A stretch of DNA of 64,000 nt from Chloroflexota bacterium (GTDB taxonomy: Bacteria > Chloroflexota > UBA11872): the NCBI GenBank assembly GCA_022826485.1, contig JAJDUU010000016.1, forward strand, positions 62,001 through 126,000. Reading direction: 5' to 3'. The notes beneath the pieces are model-generated. The model saw only the letters and a list, made by a program, of their open reading frames with translations. It ran no database searches and had not been told where the DNA came from. This document shows, in pieces, positions 3,670-47,525 of the stretch. The translations under genes and the position numbers were made by a program. The first letter of the stretch is position 1. Each line of letters opens with the position of its first letter.

Positions 3670-4649
3670 GCAACCGCGCGTGGCGGCCGCGATTCTCCGA
3701 CGGCCTCTACCGCCACTTCGAAACGCGCCACGTCGACGGGCCGTCGAACGCGGAGATCGACGCGGCCTTTCGGCATATGGACGGGGTTCCGGACGTCGAG
3801 GGGGTGGAGTGCTTCAGCCGCACGACCGTCACGCTGGAGAACGCGGCGCACGTCAAGCGGCGTCTCGACGAGCGCGGGCTGGTGTGCGCCATGGTGTCGC
3901 ACGGCGAGACGGTCGCGCGCGGGTTTCCGAAGGCGCTCTGGACGTCGCCCGAAGCGGCCGACCGGCGCGAAGCCATCGACATGGCGTTGTACTCGATCGA
4001 GGTGGCGCGGGCGCTCGATGCGCGGGGCATCTACCTGTTCACCGCCCTGGATGGACCCGACTATCCCTTCCAGCAGGACTTTCGCCGCGCGCGTCGGTTC
4101 ACCGTGGAGGCGCTGCGGGAGATATGCGACGCCGCCGACGACCTGCTCGTGGCGCTGGAGTACCGCATCCATACGCCGAAGGGCTGGTCCAACATCGGCT
4201 CGATGGCCGCCACGCTGGACCTGGCCCACGAGGTCGGGCGGCCGAACCTCGGCGCGCAGCTCGAGGTGGCGCACACCCTGCTCAGCCACGAGAACCTCGG
4301 TCAGGCCGCCTGGGACGCCGCGCGCCTGGGGCGGCTGCACCATCTGCACCTGAACGACACGCAGCTGCCGATCGACATTGGCACGATATTCGCCAGCCAC
4401 CACTTTTGGGAGTGCCTGGAGCTGCTCCACTGGCTGCGCGAGGCCGACTACGCCGGCTTCCTGGGCATCGACTGCTTCTGGTGGCAGGTCGACTCGGCGC
4501 TGAACGCGGCCCAGCAGGTCCACAACATCCACTTCATGCTGCGGGTGCTGGACGCCCTGGACGACTCGTCATTCCGTGAGGCGATGGGCGACCAGGACAT
4601 CCTCGCGACGCAACGCATGCTCTGGGAGGCGCTGCGCCGGGCGAGATAG
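3666..4649 (+). CDS. Sugar phosphate isomerase/epimerase (xylose-isomerase-like TIM barrel)
   Basis: This 327-residue protein starts at a GTG that overlaps the preceding stop by 4 bases, so translation is probably coupled. The pattern matches the AP_endonuc_2 / xylose-isomerase-like superfamily: candidate metal ligands are Glu165 (VALEYR), Glu200/His203 (LEVAHT), and His228 with Asp231 (HLHLND), placed at the usual strand ends. Such enzymes isomerise or epimerise sugars, inositol or hydroxypyruvate-type substrates using a divalent metal. Its operon partners, the HpcH/HpaI aldolase and the sialidase-like protein, suggest one catabolic route in which a ketose-like intermediate is made and then split. 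That link is inferred from gene order only. Confidence 0.85.
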   Translation: MSNRAWRPRFSDGLYRHFETRHVDGPSNAEIDAAFRHMDGVPDVEGVECFSRTTVTLENAAHVKRRLDERGLVCAMVSHGETVARGFPKALWTSPEAADRREAIDMALYSIEVARALDARGIYLFTALDGPDYPFQQDFRRARRFTVEALREICDAADDLLVALEYRIHTPKGWSNIGSMAATLDLAHEVGRPNLGAQLEVAHTLLSHENLGQAAWDAARLGRLHHLHLNDTQLPIDIGTIFASHHFWECLELLHWLREADYAGFLGIDCFWWQVDSALNAAQQVHNIHFMLRVLDALDDSSFREAMGDQDILATQRMLWEALRRAR

Positions 4650-4685
4650 CGGCGGCTCTACCCGTTTACCCGAAACCTGGTGAGT

Positions 4686-4722
4686 ACCCGTTCGTGGTGA
4701 GCTTGTCGAACCATGAACGGGT
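4686..4722. repeat. Dispersed palindromic repeat, family R2
   Basis: An imperfect palindrome with arms CCCGTTC / GAACGGG encloses GTGGTGAGCTTGTCGAACCA. The same core occurs inverted at 52903-52929 in this window. It lies in the 180-base gap between the convergent epimerase and VOC genes, where nothing else is visible. It may form a hairpin in RNA from either strand. Confidence 0.7.
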
Positions 4723-4829
4723 CGCGTGACTCAGCCCGAGCGGGGGCGGTCCCACGCTGCGCGCAGCGTGGGCCACCGGACACGGAGTTGGGTGCTTTTG
4801 GGGCAGCCCTGGCGGCTGCCCGGATCCAC

Positions 4830-5297
4830 CTAGCTGTCGCCGGGGTGCCGAACGTCGGGTAGCCGCTCGTTGAACTCCACCACGTTGCCCTCCGGGTCTT
4901 TGGCGTAGAGCACGCGGCGCCAGAGGCGGGGCCAGTCCACCGGCCCGCCCCACACGTCGAGCCCCTCCTCGCGCAGCGACTCGACGATCGGGTCCAACTC
5001 GTCCACCACGAACTGCACGTGATTCGGGCCGCTGCCGGATGGGCCGCGGGCGGGACTCGAGTCGGGGTGGTGGTGGTACTTGAGGAGCTCCAGGGCTTCG
5101 GGGCGATCCGCGGTGCCCAGGAACACGGCTTCGAGCTTGACGTCAACCAACCCGGTCAGCTCGTCGATGTGTTGCCCCTCGATCATCGCGGTGCGGGTCT
5201 GACGCAATCCGACCACGCGCGCGTAGAAGTCGCGCATGCGGTCCATGTCTTGAACCACAAGGCCAACGTGGCCGACGGTGGGAGCGCGGCGGGACAT
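4830..5297 (-). CDS. VOC (glyoxalase/bleomycin-resistance/dioxygenase) family protein
   Basis: A 155-residue single-gene VOC protein with two beta-alpha-beta-beta-beta modules. The first begins GHVGLVVQDMDRMRDFYARV (about residues 9-28) and the second NHVQFVVDELDPIVESLREEG. The C-terminal KDPEGNVVEFNE is the classic end of a VOC module and supplies the usual metal-ligand Glu; the first His (GHVGL) is another expected ligand. I chose the second Met (5297) because the 12 residues before it look like read-through of the upstream region. Function could be a lyase, isomerase or dioxygenase step; no substrate can be deduced. It is convergent with the epimerase and divergent from the membrane gene at 5399. 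Confidence 0.88.
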   Translation of the reverse strand: MSRRAPTVGHVGLVVQDMDRMRDFYARVVGLRQTRTAMIEGQHIDELTGLVDVKLEAVFLGTADRPEALELLKYHHHPDSSPARGPSGSGPNHVQFVVDELDPIVESLREEGLDVWGGPVDWPRLWRRVLYAKDPEGNVVEFNERLPDVRHPGDS

Positions 5298-8729: not shown

Positions 8730-9506
8730 CTACACGAACGCCAAATTCCGCTTCTGGCCGCGCAGAATCAGGCCGTTGACTCCCCGGTTGTGCCCTTCGA
8801 TCTGCACGTTTTGCGGGTCGCGGTAGCCGGTGCGAACTAGGCGCCGCCACTGATTGGTGCGGTTCGGATCCGAGCCGTGAATCGTCAGGTAGCTCATGAA
8901 GACCACGTCGCCGGCGTTGGCCGGCACCGGCACCGCGTCCGCCAGCCGGTATTCGTCCACCGGCAGGTGGGGGCGGGTGTCCTTCGAGTCGACGCGCCCG
9001 ATGTGCGGCAGCGGACCGAGCTTGTGGCTGCCCGGGATGAACTTCAAGCAGCCGTTGGCCTCGGTGGCGTCGTCGATATGCAGCAGCGCGTCGATGTAGG
9101 CGGGCCCCTCGTGCGCGTAGAACGGGTAGTCCTGGTGCATGGGAAACGGCGTGCCCATCTCCGGCCCCTTGGCGTGCAGCATGGTGTGGTGATACTCGAC
9201 GCTGGTGCCGAGCAGGTCCGCCACCGCGCCCACGAGTTTGTCATCGGTGATGGCGCGGAAGAACTCCTCGGAATACCCGGGGAGGTCGGAAAGAATGTCT
9301 AATCTCGCACGTTGGTCTTCTTCGGCCGTCATATAAGCTTGACGCCATGGCCCTTTCCACCCCGGACCTTGCGTGGCCCACTCTTGCATGAGCCGCTCCA
9401 GCTCTTCCGACTGACGGGCGACGGTATCGGCGTCGAAGACATTTTCCAGCCGCAAGTAGCCGTGCTCGTTGTAGGCGTCGACCTGATCCTGCGTCAGCGT
9501 TTCCAT
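8730..9506 (-). CDS. Phytanoyl-CoA dioxygenase (PhyH) family Fe(II)/2-oxoglutarate oxygenase
   Basis: A 258-residue protein. The iron facial triad is visible as His124-x-Asp126 (PMHQDYPF) and the distal His210 (LTIHGSD). An Arg following it (RRLVRTGYRD) is in place to bind the 2-oxoglutarate carboxylate. The family hydroxylates a lipid, amino-acid-like or small-molecule substrate with release of CO2 and succinate. The start at 9506 (METLTQDQV) is preferred because upstream frame residues are Arg/Pro/Ala-rich read-through. It lies between the nuclease-like gene (convergent) and a divergent membrane protein. Specific substrate unknown; PhyH paralogs are numerous in sponge symbionts and SAR202-type Chloroflexota. 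Confidence 0.9.
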   Translation of the reverse strand: METLTQDQVDAYNEHGYLRLENVFDADTVARQSEELERLMQEWATQGPGWKGPWRQAYMTAEEDQRARLDILSDLPGYSEEFFRAITDDKLVGAVADLLGTSVEYHHTMLHAKGPEMGTPFPMHQDYPFYAHEGPAYIDALLHIDDATEANGCLKFIPGSHKLGPLPHIGRVDSKDTRPHLPVDEYRLADAVPVPANAGDVVFMSYLTIHGSDPNRTNQWRRLVRTGYRDPQNVQIEGHNRGVNGLILRGQKRNLAFV

Positions 9507-9544
9507 GCGCGCACCTCTGGCAGCGACCCTGAAGTCTACCGCCC

Positions 9545-39376: not shown

Positions 39377-40828
39377 TCAGCCGGATTCCGAGGCTTTCTG
39401 ATCGGCCTCGTACTCGCGGAGGCAATCCACGATCACCTTGTTCATTTCGCAGAATCTCGTGTCCGCGAAGTCCGCCACCCACGCTTCCAGCTTGGCACGC
39501 GTGGCGCATTCGTCCCACCCAACCCCAAAGTCAGATTCATCTAACATATAGTCCTTATCTTCGTGCAAAACGGTCCAATCATCCTTCAACGAGGTGTGCT
39601 TGAGTCTGAAAAGCTTCGGATTCGTCTTGATACTCTCAAAGATCTTAGCCCTCAGCCGGTCGTTAGTCTCGTCGCCACGACCAAGCGTGAGTTTGAGCCA
39701 AGGTCGTCCGCTAGTTGCGAACGAGAATTCGAAGAGCAACAAGGCATTGGATTCTGGGGCCCAACTAGTCCCTGTCTGCGTCGCCTCATGCTTTTCCCAA
39801 TCGGCCGAGCGGAATCGAACCAACGTGTTACTTTCCATATCTAATATCCACCCAGATTGACGTTCAATGACTTCCTTGAGTAGAGGCTTCGTTTCGTCTG
39901 TCCTGGATGGTCGATGGGCAATTATTAGCTCGATCGCTACCCGGTGCTCCTGATAGATTCTTCGAGCCAGTTCCGGAATGCTCGTATCCGACATGAGATT
40001 TCTCCTTAGCGTGGTTGCGTATTGACGCAAGAATGCGCGGACATCCGCATTAGTCGAGCTTTTGTCGTTCTCGGCAATCTGTTGAACGGTATCGTAGACG
40101 ACGGCGTACGTGAGAGGCTTCCAGTGTTTTCTTTCTTTCTCGCGAAACGGGTGGGTTCCCCAAGGTGTCAAGAACACGTAGGACTTGGTAAACGTCGAAT
40201 AGGAGACCTCAAGCGCCTGCCGGTAACGGGTCAGCTGCTCATCGTGTTCTTCGGAAAATGTCTTATTCTCGATCGCGCAGAGGACTTGCTCCGATTCGTT
40301 AACGATCAAGAGGTCCAAGAATCCCCCCTGCCCATCGACCTCGTGTGGCCATTCCCGGATTACGTCGGTCGCCGACCAATCAAAGGCTTCGGCTGCCTGT
40401 GGCACTCCGGCGCGGCGAAGAAAGCGTTTGAGGAAACAGTCGCCAAAGCCGTGACGCTCGCTTGGGTCGAGAAGCCAGGCGAGCGCATTTGAGTGAAATT
40501 CCTCGAAGCCCCAGAGATATCCGCCTGATCCGAACCGGAACTGGCCGATTACGTCGAGTGCATCGAACTCGGATCGTTGCTCCGCGGCAAGCGTCGCCAG
40601 CCGCTTCAGACGCTCATCCGCTTCGAGCGTCTTGAGGAGCGTCTCCTGCCGGGAACGGTCCTCGGCAAGCGCGAGTTCCAGGTGCTTCAACTCGGACAGG
40701 ACGTTGAGTAGTGCCGACCTCTGCACGGCTTGTCGATCCGCAATGAGGCGTTCGAGTTGCGCCAGCGCAGGGATGGCGCTTTCCAGCACCGACGCCTGGT
40801 TCGTTGTCATCGTCATCTCGCTACGCAT
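39377..40828 (-). CDS. PD-(D/E)XK nuclease-like protein (PDDEXK_4-like), tandem copy 1
   Basis: A 483-residue protein. After an N-terminal helical stretch (about 15-85, probable coiled coil), a core follows with FHSNALAWLLDP (about 111-122), then Asp172 (GGFLDLLIV), Glu187-Asn-Lys189 (CAIENKTFS) and Gln198-x3-Tyr202 (QLTRYRQAL), the order D-ExK-Q of the fold. The C-terminal half is shared with the next gene (RRIYQEHR-, PKLFRLKHT, ARAKLEAWV-like). Local base composition is more A+T-rich than the neighbours, hinting at acquisition. No methyltransferase is near. The 1.5-kb gene may belong to a defence or repair system, but this is guesswork. Confidence 0.75.
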   Translation of the reverse strand: MRSEMTMTTNQASVLESAIPALAQLERLIADRQAVQRSALLNVLSELKHLELALAEDRSRQETLLKTLEADERLKRLATLAAEQRSEFDALDVIGQFRFGSGGYLWGFEEFHSNALAWLLDPSERHGFGDCFLKRFLRRAGVPQAAEAFDWSATDVIREWPHEVDGQGGFLDLLIVNESEQVLCAIENKTFSEEHDEQLTRYRQALEVSYSTFTKSYVFLTPWGTHPFREKERKHWKPLTYAVVYDTVQQIAENDKSSTNADVRAFLRQYATTLRRNLMSDTSIPELARRIYQEHRVAIELIIAHRPSRTDETKPLLKEVIERQSGWILDMESNTLVRFRSADWEKHEATQTGTSWAPESNALLLFEFSFATSGRPWLKLTLGRGDETNDRLRAKIFESIKTNPKLFRLKHTSLKDDWTVLHEDKDYMLDESDFGVGWDECATRAKLEAWVADFADTRFCEMNKVIVDCLREYEADQKASESG

Positions 40829-41106: not shown

Positions 41107-42333
41107 TTATGCGTCTTGCTCCTCGGCCTCATATTTTCGGAAACAGTTCACGATGACCTCGTTCATGGCGGGAAATATCTTGTCAAAAAAGTCCTCCAAC
41201 CACGCCTCGATCTTGGCGCGAGTGGTACCGTCGTCCCAGGCTACTCCCAAGTCATCGTCGCCCAGAATCTTCTCTTCATGCAGAGACATCCAACTCTCAG
41301 TGAGCGCGGTGGCCTTGAGCCTGAATAGATTCGGGCGTTCCCGAACAGACTCGAATAGAGTCGTTCTCACGCGGTCGTTTTCTTCACTGCGCGCCCCAAT
41401 CCGGAGTTGGAAATATAGACGCCCGCTAGCGGGGATAACAAACCTAAGAAACACCAAACGACGCCAATCGGTAGGGAACACTCGCAGTCTATCCGAAGAT
41501 TCCCGTCCGAATTCCCATCCTGGTTGTTGGTCTATTGCATCCTTGAGTAGCGGCTTTATCTCCTTCGGCCAGTTTGGGCGGTTGGCGATCAATAACTCCA
41601 CCGACTCTCGGTTCTCCAGATAGATCCTCCGGGCCTGTTGGGCAATGCTGGTGTCGGGCACGAGATTCCTCCTCAGTGTGGTTGCGTATTGACGCAGGAA
41701 TATACGGATGTCGTCAGCTATACAGTATTCGCGGTCTTCGTCGAGACGTTGAATGATCTCATATATGTCAGTGTACGTAACACACGACCAGTGTTCTTGC
41801 TCTTCCCTACGGAACGGCTTGGTTCCCCGAGGAGTCAAGAACACATAGGTTTTCTCATAGTCCGGATACGCAGTCTCCAATGCTTGCCGATAACGCGTGA
41901 GCTGTTGACTGTGTTCATGGGAAAACGTCTTGTTCTCGATGGCGCATAGCATCCGGGCCGGTTCGTTGACAATCAGAATGTCCAAATATCCCCATCGTTC
42001 ATCGACTTGGTTCTCCCACTCGCGGATTGATTCCGTGGCTGTCAAATCGGCGGTGGCAATTGCTGGCGGCGCTCCGGCGCTGCCAAGAAACGGTATGAGG
42101 AAATGCGTGCCAAGGCCGTGGCTTTGTTTTGGATCGAGCAACCACGCCAGGAGATTCGAGTGCAGGTCCTCCGGGCCCCAGACGCGCTTGCCTGACCCCC
42201 ACCGCATTTGCCCCACAAAATCGAGCGCATCGAATTCGAGTCGTTGCTCGTGCGCTAGTTGCTTCAGCGGCTCGAGAGCCTGTATAGCGCGTTCGAGCGC
42301 CTGTGCTTGATCCGTCGTCATCTCGCTACGCAC
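41107..42333 (-). CDS. PD-(D/E)XK nuclease-like protein (PDDEXK_4-like), tandem copy 2
   Basis: A 408-residue paralog of the neighbour, lacking about 60 residues of the N-terminal coiled region. Motifs: DLHSNLLAWLLDP (about 56-68), Asp118 (WGYLDILIV), Glu133-Asn-Lys135 (CAIENKTFS), Gln144 (QLTRYRQAL). Both copies share MRSEMT at the start, IFLRQYATTLRRNL, PNLFRLKATAL and LEAWLEDFFD-type segments. The pair is a tandem duplication, since their leaders align too. The active-site residues are intact in both, so both could be functional. Confidence 0.76.
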   Translation of the reverse strand: MRSEMTTDQAQALERAIQALEPLKQLAHEQRLEFDALDFVGQMRWGSGKRVWGPEDLHSNLLAWLLDPKQSHGLGTHFLIPFLGSAGAPPAIATADLTATESIREWENQVDERWGYLDILIVNEPARMLCAIENKTFSHEHSQQLTRYRQALETAYPDYEKTYVFLTPRGTKPFRREEQEHWSCVTYTDIYEIIQRLDEDREYCIADDIRIFLRQYATTLRRNLVPDTSIAQQARRIYLENRESVELLIANRPNWPKEIKPLLKDAIDQQPGWEFGRESSDRLRVFPTDWRRLVFLRFVIPASGRLYFQLRIGARSEENDRVRTTLFESVRERPNLFRLKATALTESWMSLHEEKILGDDDLGVAWDDGTTRAKIEAWLEDFFDKIFPAMNEVIVNCFRKYEAEEQDA

Positions 42334-43056: not shown

Positions 43057-44610
43057 ATGGCCATGGCTGAGAGCACGCGGGTCGTCATCATCGGCGCGGG
43101 CCACAACGGCCTCGTTGCCGCGGGGTATCTCGGGCGGGCCGGGCTGAACGTCCAGGTGCTGGAGCGCCGAGACGTGGTCGGCGGCGCGGCGGTGACCGAG
43201 GAGTGGTTTCCCGGCTTCCACATCTCCACTTGCTCCTATGTCTGCCACATCTTGCAGCAGAAGGTGATCGACGAGCTCGAGCTGCGCAGCCACGGTTTCC
43301 ATGTCCATCCCATCGACCCATCGCGCGTCCATCCTTTCCCCAACGGCAAGGTGGTGACGTTCTGGCACGACGACGAGAAGACCGTCGACGATCTGCGCAA
43401 GGTCTCGCCGGAGGATGCCGACGCCTGGATGGACTGGGCCGATATGTGGCACCGCGCCGTCGGCATCCTCAGCGACTACTACCTCCGCCGGCCTCCCGCG
43501 CTGGCCGAGTTGACCGAAAGATTCCGCGCGGAGGGCGAAGAAGAGCTGCTGGAGACGCTGCTGACCGTCCCGTTCAAGGACCTGATCGAGCAGTTCTTCG
43601 TCTCGGACGAGGTCAGGGCGGCGGTGAGCACCAGCACATGGGACATGGGGGATATCGGCGCACCGGGCAGCGCCTACATCACGGCGCTCTACCGGTTCAG
43701 CGCCTTTCGGGAGGACACCGAGAACTACGGCATCGTCCGCGGCGGCATGGGCGGCATCACCCAGTCGCTGGCGCGCTCCGCCGAGGCGGCCGGCGTGTCG
43801 ATCAGGACCGGCGCCGAAGTGGACCGCATCCTGGTGGATCGCGGGCAAGCGGTCGGCGTCCGGCTTGCCGATGGCGAGGTCATCGAGGCCGACATCGTGC
43901 TGTCGAACGCGGACCCCAAGCGGACCTTCCTCAAGCTGCTCGACGAGGCCGACCTTGGCGGTGAGTTCACCGCGGCGGTGAGAGCGCTGAAGACGAACTC
44001 GGCCTCGGCCAAGTTCCTCTGTGCCGTGCGGGAGTTGCCCGACTTCTCCGGACACCTGGGTGACGGATTCAACCCGGAGCACCTGGCGATGATGAGCCTC
44101 TGCCCCTCGGTCGAGAACGCGCAGCGGAGTTGGAGAGACGCCCAGCAAGGCCGCGTGCCCGACCATCCAATCATCCAGGTCCAGATCCCGACCGTGTACG
44201 ACCCCACCGTTGCCCCGGAAGGCGGCCACGTCCTGTCGATGTGGATCTTCTTCGTGCCGCCGCACATCCGGGACGGCTCGTGGTCGGAGATGCGCCGGCC
44301 CTTCGGCGAGTGGCTGATCGACGTGTTGACCGCCTACGCGCCGAACTTCAGGGACTCGATCATCGATTGGACGCTGCTGACGCCGGAGGACATCGAGGAG
44401 CGCATCGGCCTCACCGACGGCAACATCCGGCACATCGACCTCATTCCGCAGCAGATGATGTCGCGCCGGCCGCTGCCGGGCTGGTCGGACTACCGCACGC
44501 CGATCGAGGGCCTCTACCTCTGCGGGGCCGGCACGCATCCGGGCGGCGAGGTGACCGGCGCGCCCGGCCACAACGCGGCGCACGTGGTATTGGAACGTTT
44601 GGGTCACTAA
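43057..44610 (+). CDS. Phytoene-dehydrogenase-like FAD oxidoreductase (PYROXD2-like)
   Basis: A 517-residue flavoprotein. The dinucleotide-binding loop GAGHNG is at about 13-18 (VVIIGAGHNGLVAAGYLGRA), and ERRDVVGGAAVTEEW (about 37-51) closes the first half. The C-terminal GLYLCGAGTHPGGEVTGAPG (about 485-504) is the standard end of the CrtI/PYROXD family. An AAAGGGG site precedes the start. It may dehydrogenate a carotenoid-like or other lipid substrate, but no other carotenoid gene is seen here, so that role is not claimed. A strong hairpin terminator begins 7 bases after its stop. Confidence 0.9.
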   Translation: MAMAESTRVVIIGAGHNGLVAAGYLGRAGLNVQVLERRDVVGGAAVTEEWFPGFHISTCSYVCHILQQKVIDELELRSHGFHVHPIDPSRVHPFPNGKVVTFWHDDEKTVDDLRKVSPEDADAWMDWADMWHRAVGILSDYYLRRPPALAELTERFRAEGEEELLETLLTVPFKDLIEQFFVSDEVRAAVSTSTWDMGDIGAPGSAYITALYRFSAFREDTENYGIVRGGMGGITQSLARSAEAAGVSIRTGAEVDRILVDRGQAVGVRLADGEVIEADIVLSNADPKRTFLKLLDEADLGGEFTAAVRALKTNSASAKFLCAVRELPDFSGHLGDGFNPEHLAMMSLCPSVENAQRSWRDAQQGRVPDHPIIQVQIPTVYDPTVAPEGGHVLSMWIFFVPPHIRDGSWSEMRRPFGEWLIDVLTAYAPNFRDSIIDWTLLTPEDIEERIGLTDGNIRHIDLIPQQMMSRRPLPGWSDYRTPIEGLYLCGAGTHPGGEVTGAPGHNAAHVVLERLGH

Positions 44611-44616
44611 GCGCGG

Positions 44617-44652
44617 GGAGCGCCGCGACCTCGTTTTGGGTCGCGGCGCTCC
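44617..44652. terminator. Rho-independent-like bidirectional hairpin
   Basis: A 14-base perfect stem (GGAGCGCCGCGACC / GGTCGCGGCGCTCC) encloses an 8-base loop TCGTTTTG and is followed by GTTTCGTC. It lies between the convergent FAD gene and the deleted secreted-protein gene. A related hairpin is at 45249-45277. Confidence 0.75.
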
Positions 44653-44700
44653 GTTTCGTCGGCGGTCAGCGCGTGGCTAACAGTTGGGGAGGAGAGGCTC

Positions 44701-44877
44701 TCACCCGCTGGCCGCCGTCAGGGCCGCGTGCGACAGTCCGGCGCCGTTGCCGGCGCAGTCGGTGTGCTGCACCTGATTCGTGATTGACAGGGGGGCGGCT
44801 GCCGTCGCGCATCGCATCACCGTACCGCACAGTTGACGTCGAATCTTGTGCAGTGCCTCGCGCAATCGCTCGTTCAT
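44701..44877 (-). pseudogene. Internally deleted copy of the secreted repeat protein (signal peptide joined to C-terminal tail)
   Basis: A 58-codon frame reads MNERLREALHKIRRQLCGTV at the start (compare MNERMRQHARKFRHRLCGLS at the full-length gene start) and CAGNGAGLSHAALTAASG at the end (compare SAGNAAGLSHAAVAADD). Nearly all of the roughly 500-residue exported middle is missing, with a novel junction in between (APLSITNQVQHTD). Promoter palindrome, start region and terminator hairpin all match the intact copy. A residue-4 ATG (44877) is chosen to match its counterpart; an ATG 9 bases earlier is available. It could still produce a tiny peptide. Confidence 0.75.
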
Positions 44878-44979
44878 CGCCCGCACCTTTGTGGATGAAT
44901 CACATGAAGTACGATAGCTTGTTGCTTATATGTAAAATGTGATTTCTCCAACAATGATTCATTAACTCAACTTAATCTT

Positions 44980-44999
44980 CTTGTACACATATGCACAAT
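44980..44999 (-). promoter_or_regulatory. Candidate operator, copy upstream of the deleted gene
   Basis: CTTGTACACATATGCACAAT forms a near-perfect palindrome (TTGT-CA-AT-TG-ACAA) starting 103 bases before the ATG at 44877. The intact gene has its counterpart 104 bases before its ATG. A neighbouring ATTAA/TTAAT pair occurs in both copies. Confidence 0.5.
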
Positions 45000-45248
45000 G
45001 ACCGTCGGTATTCTTAGTCTGCCAATGATCGGCCAAGGCGCAGGCGGCTTCGGCATGAGCAATAGGCAAGGCTTGACTGGCGCGGTTGTAACGCGCCCGC
45101 TGCCAATCGCGGTCGCTGAGGGCTGTGCAGTCGTGCGATTGAAGGGCCGGAGCTGGCGGAGCGGATCTCCGTCCCGCCCCAAGCAAGTGCCCGTGTAACG
45201 CGCTTGGGCCAATGCTCGCGGCGCCGGCTCGTCACGCCCAAAGCGAGA

Positions 45249-45277
45249 GCGCCGCGACCTTGTGTGGGTCGCGGCGC
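45249..45277 (-). terminator. Hairpin terminator, copy downstream of the secreted repeat protein
   Basis: GCGCCGCGACC (45249-45259) and GGTCGCGGCGC (45267-45277) form an 11-base stem with a TTGTGT loop, about 28 bases beyond the stop at 45305. It is homologous to 44617-44652. Confidence 0.65.
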
Positions 45278-45304
45278 CCCGTTACGCCGGCAGACAGCGG
45301 GTGT

Positions 45305-46963
45305 TTAACCCTGGGGAGGAGAGGTATCCACCCGCTGTGCGTCGTCAGCCGCCACGGCGGCGTGCGACAGTCCGGCGGCGTTGCCGGCGCTGTCGTGGAA
45401 GCCGCCGCCATTGAGCCGCAGGCTGTTGGCGCCGATGCCAATGCCGTCGCTGTCCGCATCGCCTGGCGCCACGGTGTAGCGAAAGACCACGGTTTCGCTC
45501 GACGCTTGGCTGGATGCCAACGACGCCTGCCGAGCCTCGCCGCCGACGTCCAGCTCGACCTGCGGCGCGCCATCGATCCGCACGGCCTCGCTGAACGTCA
45601 CGGCAACTTCGATGACTTCGCCCGCCCGGTACGCCGTCCCATCCCTGGGGCGCGACTGAATGCCGACCGAGGTGATGGACGGAACGGTCGTATCGATCCG
45701 CTGATCGGCCAGGGGGCCGGTGCCCACGTAGTAGGGCATGGCCTCCACGTCTGTTCCTCGAGCCGTGATCGTTCCGCTGCCGCCAAACGCGTGCTCAGGA
45801 ACTCCGAGGGCGATGCTGACCCCGTCGATGTCCGTGTCGCCAGGGAGCACCGTGTACTCGAACACCAGCGTGTCGGTGCCCGAGCCGCGGACGTAGGTGG
45901 CGTCGCGCCATCCGTCCGTGCCGTTGCCGACATAAAAGCCCATCGTGATCTCGCCGTTCACTTCGACGTCGATGTCAAAATCCATCGAGAACTCGATGAT
46001 CTGGTTGGCGCGATAGGCGCTCCACCCGTCGGGCGGCGTCGAGGTCACCCGCACGCGCTTCGCGTAGGGCCGACCGTCGACCTTGTGGTCCGGCGATGAA
46101 GCCAATCCGTCGTGGATCAGGTGCGCCGGAGCATCGGTTCCCTTGGCTCGGATCGTGCCGCTGAAACCGTGGGTGGGCTCGCGATTGTCGTCCACGTCCG
46201 CCGACCCCACGCTGACCCCATCAGTGTCCCGGTCGGAGGGCCGCACCTGATATCGGAACGTGAGGTGATCGGTTCCCGAGCCGCTGTGGTAACGCGCGCC
46301 GCGCCAGTTGTTGTCGCCGTCGCCCAGGAACAGGCTGATCACGGGGCTGCCGTCCACCTCGACCGGACCGTCGAAGGTGACCGTCACGTCGATGCTTTCG
46401 CTGGCGCGGTAGGTGTCCCAGTCGTTCGGCTTGTTGGTCCAGCCGTTAGGCAGCCGGTCGCCCTCGATCGGCTTCGAGGAGATCTCGACGTCGGTGATTT
46501 CGGGGGAATCGTCGTCGATGATCGTGATCACGCAGCCGTGCCAGATGCCGCCATCCCAATAGCCGATCGAAAAGGTCTCGTCGCGTTCGGGTTTGGAGTC
46601 TTCCTTCGTGGTTATGGGGACCCACAGGGAGTCGCTGTCGTCGTCGCCGATCATCCATACGCCGTCGAACCAGGCATAGTCGTCGCGGTCCGCGGTGTAG
46701 GACCCGGAGTAGGTGAAAATCGTGGCGCAGATCGAATGGTGCCGCCTCCAGCGAACCTGCATCTGCCCCGAATTCCCCTCCAGGATCGGATCCGGGCACA
46801 CCACGTACATCCCCGTATGGTCGGCGTGGGCTGGACGAACCGTCGGCCACGGAGTCACCGTCGCCACCAGAGCGAGAAGGGCGGCCACCGTCATGCAGCG
46901 CACGGACAGACCACACAGCCGATGCCGGAACTTGCGCGCGTGTTGGCGCATTCGCTCGTTCAT
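45305..46963 (-). CDS. Secreted protein with Calx-beta-like and three bacterial Ig-like (SwmB-type) repeats
   Basis: A 552-residue exported protein. The signal peptide is about 1-47 (VAALLALVATVTPWPTVRPA, then HADH). A Calx-beta-like domain follows (about 49-150, ending TIIDDDSPEITDVEI). Three related repeats then start DTYRASESIDVTVTFDGPVE, AYRANQIIEFSMDFDIDV and AYRAGEVIEVAVTFSEAV, each running through a GTDxLxFxYxVxPxDxDxDG turn. The end AGNAAGLSHAAVAADDAQR, then VDTSPPQG, reads as though another repeat should follow, so the C-terminus may be truncated. No cell-wall or membrane anchor is visible. It is the intact twin of the 44701-44877 remnant. Confidence 0.85.
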   Translation of the reverse strand: MNERMRQHARKFRHRLCGLSVRCMTVAALLALVATVTPWPTVRPAHADHTGMYVVCPDPILEGNSGQMQVRWRRHHSICATIFTYSGSYTADRDDYAWFDGVWMIGDDDSDSLWVPITTKEDSKPERDETFSIGYWDGGIWHGCVITIIDDDSPEITDVEISSKPIEGDRLPNGWTNKPNDWDTYRASESIDVTVTFDGPVEVDGSPVISLFLGDGDNNWRGARYHSGSGTDHLTFRYQVRPSDRDTDGVSVGSADVDDNREPTHGFSGTIRAKGTDAPAHLIHDGLASSPDHKVDGRPYAKRVRVTSTPPDGWSAYRANQIIEFSMDFDIDVEVNGEITMGFYVGNGTDGWRDATYVRGSGTDTLVFEYTVLPGDTDIDGVSIALGVPEHAFGGSGTITARGTDVEAMPYYVGTGPLADQRIDTTVPSITSVGIQSRPRDGTAYRAGEVIEVAVTFSEAVRIDGAPQVELDVGGEARQASLASSQASSETVVFRYTVAPGDADSDGIGIGANSLRLNGGGFHDSAGNAAGLSHAAVAADDAQRVDTSPPQG

Positions 46964-47066
46964 CGTCCACCACCATTGGGGATGACTTATATCTAATGTC
47001 TACGTTAGTTGCACTCATAGAAATTGTGAGTTTTCGTGCGGCAATTCATTAACATAAGTTAATAGC

Positions 47067-47086
47067 CTTGTGAGCACGTTCACAAG
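47067..47086 (-). promoter_or_regulatory. Candidate operator, copy upstream of the intact secreted gene
   Basis: CTTGTGAGCACGTTCACAAG has perfect 7-base arms (CTTGTGA / TCACAAG) around GCACGT. It lies 104 bases before ATG 46963 and is preceded by TTAACATAAGTTAA, itself an inverted repeat. Confidence 0.55.

Positions 47087-47449: not shown

Positions 47450-47525
<76 letters not shown>

Follow-up and report, generated by a model that had tools for sequence, protein, structure and literature searches.

A short gene-like unit beside an intact Ig-like repeat gene in a Chloroflexota genome is probably an eroded tandem duplicate

The window, a stretch of 64,000 nucleotides from the genome of a Chloroflexota bacterium, carries two tandem units on its minus strand, between an amine-oxidase family gene on the plus strand and a tRNA gene on the minus strand (Table 1). 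The full unit runs from an operator-like palindrome through an AT-rich leader and a 552-codon ORF to a GC hairpin, and the short unit is made of the outer parts of the full unit enclosing a 58-codon ORF; an earlier note on this DNA had described both units and both ORF sizes, and all of these are present. The short unit adjoins the amine-oxidase gene and the intact copy adjoins the tRNA gene, which in congeners is tRNA-Pro(CGG) (ARAGORN; L045, L046, L048–L050). Elsewhere on the minus strand, at 39377–40828 and 41107–42333, two neighbouring PDDEXK_4 nuclease-family proteins both start with MRSEMT, and this pair looks like another nearby tandem duplication.

Table 1. Coordinates of the two units and of the genes that border them in the window.
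Feature	Position	Strand	Remark
FAD amine-oxidase family gene, one slot border	43057..44610	+	
GC-rich hairpin, 14 perfect pairs, 3′ of the short ORF	44617..44652	-	
Short 58-codon ORF: the gene's first 28 codons, ~30 junction bases, AGNGAGLSHAA stretch, frame-shifted end	44701..44877	-	
Operator-like site of the short unit, TTGTGCATATGTGTACAAG, weaker palindrome	44980..44998	-	
GC-rich hairpin 3′ of the intact gene	45247..45280	-	
Intact 552-codon gene: predicted signal peptide, N-terminal domain, three Ig-like modules	45305..46963	-	
Operator-like palindromic site of the intact gene, TTGTGAACGTGCTCACAAG	47067..47085	-	Also in G003 and G005, same position
tRNA gene, other slot border	47452..47525	-	Rfam match in window

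Leader, first codons, tail and hairpin of the two units align far above shuffled sequences. In local alignments with 500 shuffles each, the leaders scored 32 against a shuffle maximum of 18, the first codons of the short and full ORFs 35 against 18, and the tails 87 against 28, while blastn gave 79.5% identity over 151 bp for the tails (E 5e-31) and 72% over 108 bp for the heads (E 1e-7). Homologous at both ends and with its middle missing, the short unit has the pattern of an internal-deletion pseudogene. In the window's genome (3,165,920 bases in 52 contigs), a search with the DNA of the short unit gave no third copy above noise, the full protein matched only itself and the exact core hairpin arms occur twice, both times at these units.

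The three Ig-like modules of the intact gene align with one another (scores 230, 155 and 132; shuffle maxima 51–58), and the third resembles Pfam Big_12 (PF19078; score 22.7, E 0.00012), to which two weaker matches were also found. The likeness to the secreted bacterial Ig-like repeat proteins of this family lies in that resemblance and in the repetition of three modules; unlike them, the intact protein stays below the curated cut-off (22.7 versus 27 bits; 17 bits for the orthologue in the congener G003) and matches no NCBIfam model. A PDB sequence search with the intact protein gave no match, and an AlphaFold model built from two sequences has a mean pLDDT of 45.1. The N-terminal domain we take, by eye, to be Calx-beta-like. 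Given the predicted signal peptide and the repeats, the product is probably secreted and surface-exposed. It is 85% identical to the G003 orthologue over its full length, with a dN/dS of 0.21 over 551 codons (0.115 for the neighbouring amine oxidase), and on sequence grounds this intact copy, next to the tRNA gene, evolves under purifying selection. For coral-reef sponges, one study reports cadherin and fibronectin III genes as enriched in sponge-associated MAGs (PMC8163846); the present genome may likewise be sponge-derived.

Beyond the 28 codons that it shares with the full gene, the short ORF continues through junction bases of uncertain origin and then matches the gene again from codon 523 on. 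The hydrophobic core of the full protein, VAALLALVATV, occupies codons 26–36, and the break cuts into it; the AHA end of the full signal peptide lies past the break and is absent, and the best 11-residue Kyte–Doolittle mean is 1.29 in the short ORF versus 2.77 in the full gene. Thus, what the earlier note had called a signal peptide is a leader-peptide stub, and on hydropathy the short ORF lacks the functional N-terminal signal peptide that marks a small secreted peptide. A deletion of 7 bases lies directly behind AGNGAGLSHAA and moves the reading into another frame with a new stop, and the ancestral C-terminal residues and stop codon are gone; the description of both ends as kept in frame therefore holds for AGNGAGLSHAA itself and fails behind it. 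This tail simply makes up the end of the third Ig-like repeat, and so AGNxAGLSHAA is not a separate sorting element. From its ATG, the 58-codon frame runs uninterrupted to its stop; the middle and the hydrophobic core are lost and the end is frame-shifted, which amounts to the disruption of frame or essential domains by which pseudogenes are recognized. For the short head dN/dS is 0.68 and 0.95, near neutral over only 28 codons, whereas the full head has 0.30 and the intact gene as a whole 0.21. A retained fragment of the middle at the junction was considered because 12 bases there match G003 exactly around codon 239; with P 0.18 against the window's own gene (not significant) and a nominal P of 0.016 against G003, it was not relied on.

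The slot between the amine oxidase and the tRNA gene was compared in six genomes of the genus, the window's own and G001–G005. It holds the short and full units in the window, one full unit in G003 and one broken unit in G005; in G001 it is empty, and in G002 and G004 a restriction-endonuclease gene occupies it, so that the interval up to tRNA-Pro looks like a variable site. The G002 gene (L048:4507–5538) matches Pfam Mrr_cat and HARE-HTH, and that of G004 (L049, ~4180–5220) was called a restriction endonuclease by eye from similar sequence. The earlier note had proposed to look for the short form in related genomes, and a pair of short and full units occupies the slot in none of the five congeners. 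In the G005 copy (L046, ~9055–9518), head codons 1 to about 83–91 are joined directly to sequence from around codon 500, and a gain of 4 bases leaves the tail in another frame. Its head is 80% identical to the full head versus 60% to the short head, and its upstream spacer also groups with the full copies, so this deletion is separate from that in the window.

Farther afield, among 19 genomes of the family the head of the full unit was clearly found in 3, and G001 gave one match of 26 bases. A protein search of 41 genomes, including the window's own, gave matches at E ≤ 0.001 in 10, mostly only to the later Ig-like modules, and a genome-contig scan queried with the intact protein turned up no relative. 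Another 12 MAG loci that carry the neighbour gene (L061–L072, some incomplete) showed neither a unit nor a tRNA. The short unit has weak DNA matches in G001, inside a transporter-like ORF, and in G002, and a 30-base match on contig C7 of G005.

A recent duplication is not the simplest reading, since the short head lies at much the same distance from each of the other three (61.0% identity to the full head, 60.9% to that of G003 and 60.2% to that of G005), and since the sequence upstream of the short operator has no similarity to the corresponding sequence of the full unit (score 17; ten shuffles 13–17). The other three heads are 75–84% identical mutually, and decay is thus not clearly recent: of the earlier alternatives, recent decay or a small secreted peptide, decay is supported and its recency is not. 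The tails of all copies are 79–84% identical, and the short tail is slightly nearer to that of G003 (137/163) than to its neighbour's (129/162), a pattern that retention of the original amine-oxidase border would predict. Fast, relaxed evolution of a younger remnant could mimic such age. The simplest history would have the gene duplicated before these species split or at about that time, after which two working copies would have diverged and one would have lost its body; the other lineages would then also need to have lost one copy.

The operator-to-ATG distance, counted from the mapped sites, is 103 in the full unit and 102 in the short one, so the spacing is kept within one base; the earlier note had given 103 versus 104. 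Of the two palindromes, the short unit's is the weaker. A hairpin of 14 pairs closes each unit; it had been called a terminator, but its strong stem lacks a following T-run and a scan of the minus strand for intrinsic terminators has no entry for it. All four units have a second near-palindrome immediately inward of the operator, at 47048–47063 in the window and at the matching position in L045 and L046; in G003 it reads ATTAACTTAAGTTAAT. We take the full operator to fit a CRP-type TGTGA-N6-TCACA site. HTH_Crp_2 has four matches in the window's genome, three of them above the cut-off; CRP-type regulators lie at C46:67349 and C17:32264. With one mismatch allowed, the operator pattern gave eight rows at six distinct genome places, two of which are these units; a regulon with a common operator was considered and rejected, and the one place inspected among the other four, a palindrome (C43), precedes what by eye is an unrelated methyltransferase-like ORF.

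To follow what was retained in the promoter region and start, we counted columns invariant in the three other heads and then asked whether each was kept in the short unit. Kept columns number 11/13 in the operator, 12/14 in the ATTAAC palindrome and 17/18 in the start block, compared with 35/65 in the rest of the leader and 32/46 in the rest of the shared codons. Operator and palindrome together (23/27) differ from the other leader columns at a Fisher p of 0.005, and all blocks combined give p 0.0005, in both cases from columns that are not independent; the operator had been named beforehand by the earlier note, and the palindrome and start block were picked after the alignment was seen. This preferential retention leans against plain decay, although it may only reflect that the copy long worked as a full gene, with no function at present.

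Taken as a whole, the short unit is most probably an old tandem duplicate of a probable surface-protein gene, eroded by internal deletion in a variable slot and surviving as a pseudogene remnant. The copy beside the amine-oxidase gene would have lost nearly its whole coding body by internal deletion and would also have taken the small frameshifting deletion, which would leave a promoter region, a start, a piece of leader peptide, a tail stretch and a hairpin; we infer that this remnant has no function. Deletional bias in bacteria is well described, and the internal-deletion pseudogenes described for it (PMC2916853) are similar in the loss of the body, the frameshift, the intact neighbours and the scattered occurrence among relatives; here, unlike there, an intact paralogue adjoins the remnant and the promoter-side columns are fairly well kept. 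A literature search found no paper on this locus.

It is quite unlikely that the short unit has been kept for its control region or tiny ORF, as a hollowed-out duplicate sharing the intact gene's regulator. As a working small gene, it would make a regulated, cytosolic or weakly exported 58-residue peptide from the older gene's promoter and ends; the open frame, the kept operator, palindrome and start-block columns and the preserved operator-to-start distance speak for such a peptide, and we consider it very unlikely, given the missing hydrophobic core, the shifted C-terminus, the near-neutral head and the lack of such a pair in the five other genomes of the genus. The small secreted decoy or regulated peptide of the earlier note is unsupported on the same points, beginning with the want of a usable signal peptide, though the retained operator-like columns leave it some slight probability. 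A role for the DNA or RNA alone, as a spare operator that titrates a regulator or as a short transcript with its end at the hairpin, would fit the preferential retention of operator and palindrome, the CRP-type regulators in the genome and the hairpin arms found only at the two units. We hold this to be highly improbable, since the short palindrome is the weaker one, a copy that had stayed a full gene until lately would also show such retention, and none of the relatives compared keeps the short unit. A transcript alone would be no proof of function, because pseudogenes can remain transcribed (PMC7067036). An assembly or binning error deserves almost no credence: the relatives in public collections are MAGs, as is this genome, but the units are just 60–80% identical, the contig is 309 kb long and both outer flanks are collinear with congeners.

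Our verdict on the locus is ordinary duplication and erosion. Its import beyond the genus would be small: a probable surface-protein gene has apparently undergone duplication, erosion, loss or replacement in a variable slot next to a tRNA gene among Chloroflexota MAGs. Should the retained control region prove functional after all, the locus would illustrate how a hollowed-out duplicate can be put to regulatory use.
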